Below, piece by piece: positions 5,449 through 44,349 of a stretch of DNA of 64,000 nucleotides (positions within the stretch are counted from its first letter, which is position 1; each line of letters begins with the position of its first letter). The position numbers and the translations under genes were made by a program. The notes beneath the pieces are model-generated. The model did no database searches, was not told where the DNA came from, and was given only the letters and a program-made list of their open reading frames with translations. The stretch is from Hoplostethus atlanticus. Its lineage: Eukaryota > Chordata > Actinopteri > Trachichthyiformes > Trachichthyidae. The stretch lies in NCBI GenBank assembly GCA_034670405.1, contig JAXDDX010000057.1:372001-436000 (forward strand), read 5' to 3'.

Positions 5449-8259
5449 CCGAAGCCTGACTAACCAACAAGGGTCCAATAACATCCATTATATGATATGG
5501 AAGACAATTAGAGGCACAAAGGAAAAGAAGCATTGTTCCTTTACTCAGACGCTTCTATTCATACCATCATGACTAATAGTAATCATCTCTAAACAGTGAT
5601 GCTCCTTGTCAGCGCTTTGGCAATAATACAAATGGCGTCTAAAAGGCATGAAATCATATGCTGTGAAGATGTGAAATGAATGAATCAGGTGAATAAACAC
5701 ATTGGATCCTCGAGTGTCTTCTGTCGTAACTCATTCATATCTTTCAGTTCGGCACATTCAGCTCTTACGCTTACCTAGTAGCAGAAAAACTAAAGAAACA
5801 TGAAATGTGTGGGTGAGCAATCAGGGTATGAGGGGGAGCGAAGTGAAACAAAGAGAGCAGCAGTTAATAGCAGCCTCTCATGACTGCCTGGAGACAGAAA
5901 CTCTGCGGTGGGAGGTAGAGATGAAATGCTGCATTCCAGACAGCCAGACATGTCTCTGCCTCCAGCCAAACCTATCCTATCTAAACAGCCGCCTTCACAG
6001 TGCTGGAGGGAGCGCCATCCCCAGCCCCGGGGGAGAGGCGGGGGATAACTGGGCTACACCTGCACATAAGCCCAACGCCACCTGTCACTCTCTAATATAC
6101 ACAGCCTCGCAAAAAAAACATGTTTCAAGTAGAAATAAATGGATGAAGAGGGGAAAGAAATGTGTAGCATGGCAAATTTTGCAGAGAATTATCAATTAAT
6201 ACATTTGATGTCACAAGGAAAGAGGGATGAGGAGACTGTGCCGTGGATCAGATGGAGGCTGTTGAGAAGGGTGCTGAATAAAGAAGTGGAGGGTTGATTG
6301 GAGGCAGGCTGCTGGCTGCTGGTCTCCTAGCAGCCGTGTGATTAGCGGGTCATTGGATTAGCTGTTGCAGCATCCCGCCATCGTCTCTTATCTGCTGAAC
6401 GCCTCTAAAAGGCTGTCTGTGTTGACGCCGACCGTGATCGAGCCGACCATTCCTCATTTCCTGCAACTCCCTTACCTCCTGGTCCTCTAACCTCTCTCTA
6501 TCTCTCCATTATATCTTCCCTTTGTGTCCCCTCAGCCGCTCTCCTCACTGCCATTCGTTCTAAGGAGGATTTGTGTGTCATATTGGCTTCCTGAAAATTG
6601 ATTTTTTTTATCTGCTGTTAGCATCCTGGACTGGTGGTGAGGGAAGATATCAAAAGCTCTGCTGCTGCTTGTCTGTCAGACAAAAAGGAAAGCACAGCAC
6701 ATAACTCTCTAGAATCAGGAATTGTCTTCCACATGACACACGTGACATTTTAGTGATGAGGGTATAGATCAGTTAACTTGGGATTTGTCCGAAAAGTAGA
6801 TCCTGTAGATCCATTTGTTGTTAATGAAGGGTAAATGTCTGGTTTCTGCTATATTCTGAAAAGTAAGAGGAAGGTAGAATTATGTAATAATACGAGGAGT
6901 TACTGTATGATGAGTGAGATATGAGGTAGAGGTGAGAGGCACTGATATGAGACCAATAGAGGGAGCTGTTGTGCTTCTTTGTTTTTTTTGCTCTTGATGA
7001 ATGAATGGCTGGATACATGCCACATAGGCACTACACTGCATGCAACCACAACCTGTCTGCATTTTACAAGATGTAACACCTGTCCTGTCACATGTACACA
7101 CACACCTACATACACACACATACACACAGAGAGAGGGAGGGAGAGAGACACATGCATGGACTTGGATCAAAGTGTTTCTCTATAGCCTCTTCAGTTTCTA
7201 GACAGATGTGATTTAGCTGGTTTAAGTAGGGGTTTGCGACAGGACGAGAACACAAAGCAGCTCTGTCTGCACTGGATTCGTCAACCTCAGGAAATGAAAA
7301 CTTATGGAGAATCACTTTCTGTACCTCTTGCTGAGAGATAAAAAAGAACCATGAAGAGATGTGTTTTCTCAAAGAGCAGATGTCTTGCAATGTCTCTCTC
7401 ATCTCCATCCAGTCTGGGAAAAAATGTAATCAATCTACAGCAAAAAGCTTGTGTCCCAAGAAATGCACTCACTCCAGATCCATGGTCAAAACAAAGAAGG
7501 CACTGAGACAAAAGCGTGTCAGACTAAGATAATCTCCATTCCCGTCTAGCCTAATCCGAGACCTTGGCCGCAAGCAGATGGCACCTTAATAAACAACAGG
7601 CTAGGGTGAGGCCTGTAAGGCAGAGCGTCAAAAAGGAAGGGGGTTGGGGGGGTATAAAATATCCCGCCATGTTGATAATGAGATCAGGAGTTATGTTCAT
7701 TTATATGACTGCAGAAAAGAGACAGGAAAGAGAGAGAGACACCTGTCCAATGAATGCACAGTGACAACACAGCCTCACTAGTCTCTTCCATTATAAAAGT
7801 CAGACTTTGTATTACAGTGCATGTGTACAATGAACAATTCCAGAGACTAACACTACCTGAAAACGTAATTAACTGTATGAATAGAGGCTATGCTGGCTAA
7901 AGGGGAAACAGGATGTGTTTTCATAGCAATTGCATTTTGTAAATATATTTGTTTTGACGTGTCTCTTTCTTTTTAACTACTGAAATGGACAATCAAGTGC
8001 AATCTCATCCCATCTTATCTCAAAAACTCCAAGGCTTCCTGATCACAGCCCTACTGTGCGCTTTCAGGTGTGCGTGACTTCGTGCTCTTGACAACTAAAG
8101 GAGTGAACAGTGTAAAAGGCCATGTTAGTAACGGTTGAAAGAGCTCTGCACTATAATAGCGCGTCTGTATAAACCCGACTACCGCGCTAGCATTGCTGAG
8201 AGCCTGCAGTTGTTCCATTATGCTATACCTCATAAATACTTCCTCATCACACGGAGATC

Positions 8260-39752: not shown

Positions 39753-40839
39753 GATGGTGATGAGGATTGTGACGAAGCAAGAGCACTGGTCCAACAAAAT
39801 ATGAACCTAGTGAAAAAGTGTCTCGATGACAAAGACTGATTCATGTTCCCATAACCTGTTTATTGCTACAGCTCAGAAAAACAACCAAACAAATTAGGTT
39901 ACTCTTCTGTTTTCCCTCTATATTTGAGCAATAGCAGTTAAAACCGGATCATATTGTTATAGTTCCCTATGTACCACTCGGTTTATGTAATAGTAACTGT
40001 TGAAAAAGACAGCTTATAGCTACGGCAGAGGCAGAAGGACAAATAAAAAAAGACAAACATACATGACAACCTGAGGCCATTGCTCGACGCACGGACCCAC
40101 TTTTTAATTCATTCACAAGTCGACCATATTATTAGAACTGCAGCAGGATCTTATAGTCTATGATGCACTTTGGCACAACTATTGAATTCTCCTGACTAGG
40201 CTCAAAGTATCGACCAGTGCTGCAGGAGCTGCACTGAGCTGGTGCTGATGACGGGGATAACGGGGCTCCAGTGATTCCCCTACATTAGCACAAACAAGCC
40301 CAGTGTTTAGAAATGGTACATTTACTGCTGCAACCTGTATTAGAAACAAAAAGGGAGTGGATGTGGAATCAAATCCCAAAATCACCCCAACTCACTAATG
40401 CTACAAACAGCTATAGAAGAAATGCCTCTCTTTCCATTATATGGGATTAGATGAACACCAGTAGTGCAGTTTTTGCAATATCGGTTTGTTTCTTTCTGGG
40501 AGCAGCAGGTCACCTCGCTGACCAGCTAAGCCAGGTCTTAACTAAGTAACTACTCCAAACAGCATGCATTCTTCTTCCATGAACCAAATATCGTACATTT
40601 CAATGTTGTCTAGGAAGCTACAGCAGAATTCTGTTTATATTGACATCTTACCAGTGGCGGCTGGCCAATAGAGGGCGCTAGGGCGCCGCCCCACCGCTCC
40701 CCACATCCTAGACTTCATTGAATAACTTTAAAAATTACTTTGAATTATTTATTTATTTTAAATGAGCGAGGTAAATATTATATAGTTAGTGAGTAAAATG
40801 TATAATCTGCAATAAAATTTAGATTAAAATTGTTCTACG

Positions 40840-41507
40840 TTGTCTAAAGTTACTGCTAGGCCACGTATTTCCGGCCTGGGGCGCAAGAATCTTTGCCGAT
40901 ATAAATTGTACATGCGCAGTTCGCGCCTCTCAATACAAGAGATAGGAGCTTGCATTTATCTGAATGCTGCCGATTTACACACCACCAACCACTGGTTGGC
41001 AGCAGAGAGCGAGTGGCTCGAGTGGACATCTGACATAAAATGCGCCAGAATGAGACAATATACTCGGTCGTTTTCAAGGAGCTGGTTTAGTAGGAAGGCT
41101 TGGCTAACTGTATGTAGTGACACCAATGCTTTATTTTGCTTTCCCTGCACCCTTTTTCAAACGACAGGTCTCAGACCCAGCATGGATTCAGACAGGTTTG
41201 AATGATTTAAACCACATATCAGAAAAAACAAAAGCAAATGTTTGGGAAAGTAAACATAGCTGCTCAGCTTGATGAAGGCTACAGGATAGGGATCTGTAAG
41301 CATAATGAAGAGGTTGACAAAAACAGGCACATCCTGTCTAAAATAATAAACTGTGTCAAGTTCTGTGGTGCCATAGAGTCATTGAGAAAAATGTATGTAC
41401 AAAAAGTTGAATCCACAAGGTGGCAAAGTCATATGGCTTTGAGCCAGTTCACTCAGCTTTTTGATACGACGGCACTGGGTATTTCAAATGTTATTTTCTA
41501 TTAGGTC
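40840..41507 (+). pseudogene. hAT transposase remnant (TTF zinc finger and start of catalytic region)
   Basis: An open frame to 41205 encodes DLHTTNHWLAAESEW... and the zinc-finger-like part WFSRKAWLTVCSDTNALFCF with PC following, typical of the N-terminal TTF-type finger of hAT transposases. A second frame (41238-41507) contains AAQLDEGYRIGICKHNEEVD and KNRHILSKIINCVKFCGA, a stretch conserved in ZMYM-like hAT transposases. It then jumps to VESTRWQSHM, which resembles a part located far downstream in full-length proteins. This points to a large internal deletion of the catalytic core, so no active transposase can be made. Confidence 0.85.
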
Positions 41508-42349
41508 TACTGTGTTCATAATTTTCTGCCATTGTCTCAGGGTTTTGTGTTGTCAGATTTCTTTTGCACTTATCGAGGCACTTTTTGCTTACTTTAGTCT
41601 TTCACCATTACATATTGTAGTATAAAAGATAATTATTATAAAGAATTTGCACTAAATGAAGTACCTTAACTTACCTTAAGCACGTTTCATTACAACAAAT
41701 GTTGTAATTTTAAGTGTATGATGCAATGTGAATATAAACATTTTTAATCTCTTTAATTTTACTTCTGACTGAAATTTGGATTGCAGAATTGTGATTGTGA
41801 ACCCTGGAAAATTCAGCCTCTCCGACCAGACCCATGTTGTATGTATGCACTATAACTAGTCTGTTCTGTTGTCTATGTTGTCTCTTATGTTTGGAGTATG
41901 AGACTGTGTGACTCCAAGGAAGGTCAAGCATAATGGCAGCAGCCTGGGGGGCTTTGGATGGGCAGTGTGTGATCACCTTTTACAGACAAAAAGAGATTCT
42001 TAATGCTCATGGATGAGCAGTCATGGACATGGTGGTGAGTTCTACAGAAAATAAAGCAGCTAGTATTGTTAGTTTCTTATTTGTTGATATTTGCTTCCCT
42101 CATTTTCTATTAGGGATTATTTTTATCTATTAGTATTTTTATTTATTCATTAGTGACCATGTGACTGGGTGTGATGAAATGTGTGCCGAGAGCTCAGATT
42201 GGCTGTGACATAATGACGTTCTGAGAGACACAGTGGGCACCAGATGAAACTTGTGGGTCAGACTTCACTCTACCAACCTGAAAGAAACAGTGATTTCATT
42301 GTCTTAGTTAGCAAACCGTTACAATTTCATTCATTTAACAAAAGCAATT

Positions 42350-43639
42350 ATGGAGGAGAATTTCTGTCCAGGTAAGACAAATCTACTTGTATTTTTCTTT
42401 TTTAAACAGATCTACTATCCTAAAACATTCTTGCCAGCCAGTTCCTTTACTGTCTGGTTAATTGTCTCTGTGTGATAAAAGATGAAGCTAAATGTTTTAG
42501 AGCTGAAACTCTCTGTCAGCCTATGTTTTTGCTAACATGCTGACATACCTTGTCTCACTTCTTTCAGCGTGGATGGATCAAGTCATTCGCCTCAACGCCC
42601 TCAAAGGTGATGATGACGAATTCATGGCTTACATCCCAGCCAACAACCATGGGGAGAGATGATATTCTTACGCTCCAGCCTCTATCTCTGGATACGCTGT
42701 TGAGCTCAACTCTGCCCTGTCTCCATTTGCTCAGCCCACCTCAGCTGAAGACCTTTGGGAGGGACGATACGCTTATGCTCCAGCCTCTATCTCTGAATAC
42801 GCTGTTGAGCTCAACTGTGCCCTGTCCCCATTTTCTCAGCCGACCGTAGGCTCCAGATCTACCTGTGGACTTGAGAGTCTCCACTTCTGGGAACCAGTAG
42901 TCAGCTCAGAGGAAGACGTACCTCTCGTAGCTAAGGACGAGACTTCAGGAAATGCTGAACCATACAGCCATCCAGCCAAGGACGCCGAGAGTCCATCCAA
43001 CCTGCTCAGAAATGCTGAGGCTTCATTCAGCATGGCGCAAACCAGTGAGACCATAGAGCTCATTGGGAGGCTGCTGCAGCAATCCTTCATTGGTGACCTA
43101 GAAGACCACGTGTATGAATACTGCAAGAATGTACTTGGTGAAAAGTACTTCTATGCTCCTTCATCTGATGTATCTGGATTTGTGGTTGACTGCTCTTCAC
43201 CCTGTGGGCCGTATATAAACCAGCTTGATACATGGGAGCCAGTCGTCACAGCAGATTCTGACTCAATGCAGTTCCTCTCAGACTTGGAAAAAGAGGAAGA
43301 GGGCCAAGACCATGTGGTCCTCAAGGAAGACAGTCATGTTTTCTGCCAGTGATCCAATTGATGAAAGTGCCACAAGTGTCTATGAAGATGCAAATCGTGA
43401 GTGTGATGAGAAAAACAACGTCACTACTTTGCTCTGTGCTGGGCCTGACAGCAGTATCACTGCACAGGAGGAGGGAGACTTGGTCCAAGGGCTCGACCCT
43501 GCAGGACTTGACTGCTCCAACGTTGAGATCACCGCTTCAAAACCAAAGAAAGAGGAAGAATTCTGGCTGCTTCTCTTGGCTCTTCCGTCTCTTCAGGCGA
43601 AAGAAGAACAGCAAATCCTCTAATGCAACTCGTACTTGA
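42350..43639 (+). pseudogene. unrecognised two-exon gene carried inside the hAT element, decayed
   Basis: Exon 1 (42350-42371) encodes MEENFCP plus one base, followed by donor GTAAGA. The intron ends with acceptor ttctttcag at 42567, and exon 2 starts with CG, giving MEENFCPAWMDQVIRLNA in frame. Exon 2 runs to a TGA at 43637-43639 with three lesions. A TGA at 42660 corresponds to CGA in the homologous internal repeat (a CpG-type C-to-T change). Two frame changes, near 43338 and 43560, each act like one surplus T. The predicted product is acidic with three related blocks (YSYAPASIS, YAYAPASIS, YFYAPSSDV) and a basic end (GCFSWLFRLFRRKKN). A poly(A) signal AATAAA is at 43665. I do not recognise the family. 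It does not resemble transposase and, having an intron, is not a retrocopy. Confidence 0.75.
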
Positions 43640-44349
43640 ATCATTATGCTTATTGTCATGTTCAAATAAATGTATTTAAACTAAATACATTTAAACTAAA
43701 TACATTGTGGATTCTATCTGTACAAGTGTATTTGTATAAACCAAGGGATCTACTATTCTTTGTTTTAATGTCATTTTTTGTCATTTTGGAACAAAACTCA
43801 ATATTGCCTACAGAAATAGAGTCTTGTTTTGGGGCTGATCCATTGGCTACCAAAGCAGAGAAGCTTCCACTGCAGACCTTTTCAAAAACAAGGAGGCATC
43901 TGCAAGATGATGAGAATGCATTTTCATCAGCAGCCCACACCTGATTCCTTGTCATGTTACTTTACAGTTAAATGTTTTACAGCTCAGCAAATACAAATAA
44001 AGGCCTTTTCATTTATAAATACATTGATGATACCTTAGTACATGTTTGCTTGATTTTTGGTATAGCCCCCCCTGGAGAAAAATGCACCAGCCGCCATTGC
44101 ATCTTACAGAAAAGGATTGATGACATGTGTCTCACAAGCGTTTGAGGGCTTTAAATAAATGAAAACAGAACCATCTTGTTGTCTTTCTTTTAATTATTCA
44201 AACTTTTTAAAAACAGTAAAAATACATTTTAAAACTAAATGTTCAAGTGGCTAAGCACATCAAGAGTCACAACCTCAAGTCATCATCATGTTGTGTGTGC
44301 ACTCAAACCTAGAACATGGTCTTTTAGAAGTTGTACATGTTCTTTCTCT

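Follow-up and report, generated by a model that had tools for sequence, protein, structure and literature searches.

The window analysed here, a stretch of 64,000 nucleotides from Hoplostethus atlanticus, holds at positions 40652-44099 a non-autonomous hAT element with a decayed transposase in its left part and an unrelated two-exon gene (42350-43639) inside. (Features of the window are given on its forward strand, and all genome counts refer to the genome that we examined, G000, which comprises 633 Mb in 1161 contigs.) The element lies between two directly read copies of an 8-bp target-site duplication, CATCTTAC (40644-40651 and 44100-44107). Its 5' terminal inverted repeat (TIR), CAGTGGCGGCTGG (13 bp, 40652-40664), pairs at 12 of 13 positions with its 3' end, CCAGCCGCCATTG (13 bp, 44087-44099). 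These are short TIRs with a CAGTG-like start, as in the hAT superfamily, whose usual end motif we take this to be. Helitrons have neither TIRs nor target duplications, and the presence of both rules out that this element is a Helitron. The first-pass annotation of this sequence had described a hAT element with exact 8-bp duplications and matching ends, and that description is accurate.

The gene begins with a short exon 1 (42350-42371, MEENFCP..) whose ATG is at 42350. The intron (42372-42567), which varies in length among copies, runs from a GT donor at 42372, directly after exon 1, to an AG acceptor that ends at 42567. Exon 2 (42568-43639) extends to the native stop codon at 43637-43639, and an AATAAA polyadenylation-type signal, read directly, follows at 43665-43670. 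Sequence comparison reveals two tandem in-frame repeats of 105 bp (35 aa) within exon 2 (42632-42841) that are 84% alike; other copies of the gene have one to three such units. The first-pass annotation had described a separate split gene with a donor, an acceptor, and a poly(A) signal, and that description is accurate as well. The copy in the window is a pseudogene: exon 2 is broken by a stop at 42660-42662 and by frameshifts further on. To describe the state of the gene more widely, we use 40 copies, including the window's, which were the best-scoring of 117 DNA candidates; the sample is therefore biased toward complete copies. The ATG is present in 37 of them, the donor in 36, and the acceptor in 39; of the 34 copies with a locatable C-terminus, 31 have AATAAA. 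Thirteen of the 40 have the start codon, the donor, and the acceptor intact, with a frame of 330-400 aa that stays open to the native C-terminus.

Comparison with hAT elements that lack the gene divides the window element into a 5' arm (40652-41703), a gene block (41704-43979, the putatively captured DNA plus junction bases), and a 3' arm (43980-44099) that ends in CCAGCCGCCATTG. Three elements without the gene, L002, L003, and L008, measure 1.11-1.13 kb, and their 8-bp duplications are perfect in L002 and L003 and have 3 mismatches in L008. The block is absent from L002 and L008. Their 5' arm extends to the point that corresponds to 41703 (..AAATGTT, or AAATATT in L008) and is followed by CATT and then by the 3' arm from 43980 (CAGCTCAGC..). 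In L003, whose 5' arm is shorter, the 3' arm has an identical start and is again preceded by CATT. In the window, the last 7 bases of the 5' arm, AAATGTT (41697-41703), recur at the right junction (43970-43976).

The left junction of the gene copies falls into two main classes. In 13 of the 40, ..AAATGTT CATT is followed by CATTATACAAG.. and the block (with one base changed in L016); in 15, including the window's, ..AAATGTT is followed by GTAA.TTTAA... L044 has its own variant, and the junction was unreadable in 11 copies (10 were unmatched, and the match for L041 is to a neighbouring gene-less element). Among the elements read at this junction, L004 is the same element as L030. In 27 of the 40 copies, the right junction consists of ..TTTACAGTT or a close variant of it, AAATGTT TTA, and the 3' arm, in this order; nine have another flank and four are other or unreadable. 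Together, these reads show that the block occupies a single internal position in the gene-less hAT and is bordered left and right by AAATGTT. Because CATT is kept where the arms of the gene-less elements meet, an origin of these elements by simple deletion between the AAATGTT repeats is disfavoured. According to the first-pass annotation, ordinary transposase sequence at the positions of the block in other copies would refute capture; the gene-less copies hold nothing there, their arms being joined through CATT.

The element and the gene are both present at many places. A 27-bp query from the hAT 5' end has 602 genomic sites with up to 3 mismatches, and the reversed control has 0. A search with exon-2 DNA gave 43 matches, mostly at 94-98% identity (40 of 117 candidates scored), and a search with the protein gave 158 (114 of 223 candidates scored). 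After merging, the matches listed from the protein search correspond to at least 94 gene places, six of which are diverged outliers (two on C451 and one each on C388, C569, C1092, and C77). Some gene places look clustered: C5 has eight, with four within 7.28-7.72 Mb, and C201 has several, including a local series at 312-318 kb. The mean pairwise divergence of copies is 2.5-4.2%, depending on the region.

We examined 19 long loci: the window and 18 others, each read over about 8 kb. Both hAT ends enclose the gene at 11 of these, and 8 of the 11 complete elements have perfect 8-bp duplications, every one different (CATCTTAC, CCGTGGCA, CATTTAGG, AGGCCAAC, AACAGGAA, CTACTTAT, CTTGTAGG, and GAGACAGC). 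The scan tolerated shifts of up to 3 bases, and all eight perfect duplications directly adjoin the 3' end. The other three elements (L040, L047, and L051) have a duplication with 2 mismatches. As the eight perfect duplications around gene-bearing elements all differ, the gene and the element have transposed together repeatedly.

Many elements that end in CAGTGGCGGCTGG share the gene, a finding that the first-pass annotation had named as support for its reading. The gene lies inside 13 of 100 listed exact 5' ends and 14 of the best 40 5' ends, and it lies upstream in 38 of the best 40 3' ends (27 bases of that query came from the gene block, which biases the result toward gene-bearing copies). 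In a separate search with the left part of the block, 38 of the best 40 places were within 3.5 kb of a gene place (40 of 79 candidates scored); the exceptions are C45:2104228 and C60:1754269. We also observed a hAT element, L006 (C57:2275448-2278597), that holds the left part of the block with no gene place nearby.

The transposase remnant lies in the 5' arm (approximately 41044-41399), where frameshifted pieces of an N-terminal hAT (ZMYM1-like) transposase are spread over several frames. The window remnants alone had no match in Pfam. However, there are relatives with longer open frames (150 of 1772 candidates scored). One of them, at C137:595967-596344, is 78% identical to the remnant over 126 aa and has an open frame of 360 aa, and 130 residues of its continuation match PF14291/DUF4371 (E = 4.1e-16, 60 bits). 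We take DUF4371 to mark ZMYM1-like hAT transposases. The transposase remnants of the first-pass annotation are genuine, and an element of the C137 type may help the window-type elements to move in trans.

Relatives of the gene also occur outside of hAT elements. L057, on C451, belongs to a tandem array with a unit of 4117 bp and neither hAT arm. It matches the window at 42047-42117, 42434-42630, 42975-43690 (84.6%), and 43798-43969. Its homology to the window runs through CTTTACAGTT up to 43969, 10 bases short of the hAT 3' arm, where L057 continues as TACAACAAAACAAC... The same kind of flank replaces the hAT 3' arm in nine of the 40 gene copies (L013, L018, L022, L025, L026, L041, L043, L053, and L054), three of which carry a deletion over the junction. 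In all of the nine except L041, the flank runs for about 240 bp to a common right end (..GAACCATGATTTAGGATCA, with a few bases varying). In a genome search with the flank (40 of 51 candidates scored), 14 matches stop at this right end; 13 of them adjoin a gene place, the exception being C201:334917. The first 109 bp of the flank were also found on contigs of the array family. Because the flank is common to L057, the nine gene copies, and these contigs, we take it as native to the gene and as cut at the hAT junction in window-type elements. The presence of this native 3' flank in armless array copies, past the point at which window-type elements turn into hAT sequence, supports capture.

Two of the native-flank copies, L013 and L022, form a tandem pair (C25:273787-277795) whose members are 2917 bp apart and have both a full frame and the native flank. 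No recognisable hAT arm was found in the 4.1 kb read of each. This pair may be a parent-like locus or it may be truncated element copies. In L041, the native flank of the gene copy contains or directly adjoins a gene-less hAT copy (oriented positions 5873-6832). Diverged pieces of the gene or of the flank are present on C388, C569, C1092, C650, C652, C369, C408, and C402.

What the gene encodes is only hinted at by profile searches. Its only Pfam match is to CLAMP (PF14769), at 17.1 bits for the window piece and 15.4 bits for L012, as compared to a cut-off of 22.7; among about 40 matches of the cargo gene in the genome, one scored 23.6 bits, just above the cut-off. A host CLAMP-type gene on C47 scores 57.4 bits. 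We rejected the idea that the cargo is a recent copy of this host gene because the C47 match is in three separated pieces and scores far higher, while the cargo match is in one exon. Of three weak CLAMP matches inspected by eye, the one on C164 may be a second host CLAMP-type gene; those on C10 and C64 contained no convincing CLAMP sequence. A search of the PDB with the window piece and the L012 protein gave no match, and a viral origin was set aside after a tblastn scan of viral contigs found no relative. CCDC189 and CABCOCO1 presumably belong to PF14769. Both are described as acting in sperm flagella (PMC10437088). The similarity suggests a possible germ-line link for the cargo gene, as a lead only.

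Across exon 2 of the 40 copies, there are 88 distinct synonymous, 188 missense, and 5 nonsense changes, versus 96.8, 275.4, and 16.7 expected from the spectrum of the non-coding parts (pN/pS of 0.68). A codon model with stops and gapped codons masked gave an omega of 0.83, which is not distinguishable from 1 (fixing omega at 1 costs 1.56 log units). Between the array and the elements, dN/dS is 0.63-0.87. Small indels occur at 1.0 per kb per copy in exon 2, versus 4.1-6.2 in the intron, the flanks, and the 5' part (uncorrected for base composition, which differs between these parts). Exon 2 has 2 frame-breaking indels that are present in at least two copies and 21 private ones; the non-coding parts used for comparison have 26 and 60, respectively (P = 0.057, Fisher test). 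We looked for strong purifying selection and do not claim it. The indel and substitution data fit weak constraint plus a recent burst, and the evidence for selection on the gene is weak.

Our preferred explanation, which we consider likely, is that this is a multicopy Pack-hAT moved in trans by the transposase of a related ZMYM1-like hAT. The starting point would be a non-autonomous hAT in the 1.1-kb gene-less form, whose 5' arm held a transposase that had already decayed and whose 3' arm was short. This element would then have gained, perhaps by template switching at short matches (CATT and AAATGTT), some 2.3 kb of non-hAT sequence that brought along a whole two-exon gene and the signal at its 3' end. 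The direction of events would be capture into a gene-less hAT and not the reverse. As the composite kept both hAT ends, a transposase supplied in trans could cut and paste it. The related ZMYM1-like enzyme would have done so, leaving 8-bp target duplications, and the composite, still carrying the gene, would have increased to at least tens of copies. Some gene copies may be expressed. Direct support comes from the structure of the element, its junctions, its repeated transposition with the gene, the related transposase frame, and the armless relatives of the gene.

Several observations weigh against this explanation. There is no secure parent gene: L057 has no matches to exon 1 or to 42631-42974, and its exon 2 is frameshifted. 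Also, its left homology begins only near 42047 (weakly at 41976), and 41704-42046 is not confirmed as native flank. The C25 pair groups with element copies in a poorly resolved gene tree. As the array copies are partial and broken and the C25 pair falls among element copies, a host parent is not demonstrated. The first-pass annotation had suggested that the element took up a host gene and could have spread it, and that a parent might exist outside of any TIR pair. The spread (with perfect duplications at 8 of 11 complete elements) and the capture are supported and armless relatives do exist in the L057 array; it is the host parent that is missing. The nine native-flank copies intermingle with the others in the gene tree, and no clean split between the two right-end classes was found (the tree is weakly resolved), which implies a history more complex than a single clean event. 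Two of the best 40 left-part places, as well as L006, carry block sequence with no gene place near. Finally, the reads cover only three separate gene-less elements and, of the C137 element, the transposase part.

An alternative is that the gene block is a mobile element in its own right, which jumped into the hAT and has travelled with it since. AAATGTT on both sides of the block resembles a short target duplication. Eight sampled copies (two of which are the tandem pair) end alike about 240 bp past the junction, with unrelated sequence after it, and 13 further or overlapping genomic places beside the gene end at the same right end. In L018 and L026, two of the three copies tested, the flank of the hAT 5' end is duplicated at 7 of 8 positions beyond this right end. 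The third, L053, has 3 mismatches, and the right end was tried at 35 offsets. Against a nested element, the left end could be read in these three members of the class and is the hAT 5' end in each, and 38 of the best 40 left-part places adjoin the gene. The first-pass annotation had noted that terminal repeats of the block's own would argue for such a nested element; no TIR was recognised in the block, only AAATGTT at both junctions. We consider a nested element unlikely.

The gene might instead be an accessory that is ancestral and normal for this hAT family, with the gene-less copies being deletions. This would account for its presence at many elements, for the full frame in 13 of the 40 sampled copies, and for the scarcity of shared frame-breaking indels in exon 2 (2 versus 26 in the compared non-coding parts). 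It seems very unlikely because only 13 of 100 listed exact 5' ends contain the gene, because the gene-less arms join at the block boundaries with CATT, which a simple deletion from one AAATGTT to the other would not produce, and because the array copies bear parts of the gene and its flank without hAT arms. It is also conceivable that the gene copies are an ordinary host multigene family located by chance among hAT elements, or an assembly artefact, as some of them are in tandem (the C25 pair, the C201 series, and the C451 array). But the eight different perfect duplications at gene-enclosing hAT ends and the junctions common to many contigs refute this for window-type copies, and we regard it as extremely improbable overall.

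How does the proposed Pack-hAT compare to known systems? Plants offer well-documented cases in which cut-and-paste transposons have captured coding DNA. Plant Pack-TYPE elements likewise capture and shuffle coding DNA via non-autonomous elements (PMC8903248). In animals, a survey of 100 genomes reported 370 Pack-TIRs, 208 of them with hAT and four multicopy (PMC8277862). The window element has the features of a Pack-TIR in that non-transposon sequence lies between parts of a TIR element and has moved with target duplications. It resembles the multicopy animal examples, such as Ssk-FB4 in Drosophila and Pack-hAT-N8_XT in the western clawed frog, in being a non-autonomous TIR element with non-transposon cargo, distinct target duplications, and short matches at the junctions (PMC8277862). 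It differs from the frog element, which carries a 291-bp piece of 5' untranslated region at three places, in that an entire two-exon gene is present at tens of places (PMC8277862). Also, the survey required an identified parent, whereas the present element lacks a secure one (PMC8277862).

In the fungus Pseudocercospora fijiensis, histone H3 was captured by a hAT, reached hundreds of copies, and was inactivated by repeat-induced point mutation (RIP) (PMC6710886). The 8-bp duplications and the amplification of a captured gene to high copy number are shared with our case, but the fungal elements are about 9.5 kb at full length, many have a hAT domain, and their cargo is RIP-inactivated, as compared to full frames in 13 of 40 copies here (PMC6710886). 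In fish, the texim genes, which encode SGNH hydrolases and are present in few copies in platyfish, are associated with Helitrons (PMC4021074). They too are tied to a DNA transposon and were probably spread by it, although their carrier is a Helitron and not a hAT (PMC4021074). Our search of the open-access literature (titles and the openings of abstracts) found such analogues and no paper on this element. The present case resembles these in its workings, and it combines a vertebrate-type hAT setting, a whole gene with an intron, and a copy number of at least tens.

Transposons that carry and spread an unrelated gene are known from plants and fungi and have rarely been described in vertebrates. 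One tentative possibility is that the gene is a transmitted cargo of vertebrate hAT elements, with its frame maintained in source copies for the benefit of the element or of the host (for example, in the germ line); the transposon would then act to disperse a functional multicopy gene family. Because the spread is recent and about a third of the sampled copies have the full frame, the capture junctions, the amplification, and the fate of the cargo can be compared copy by copy. With such a system, one could test whether cargo of this kind rides along neutrally, serves the transposon, or amounts to a new family of host genes.

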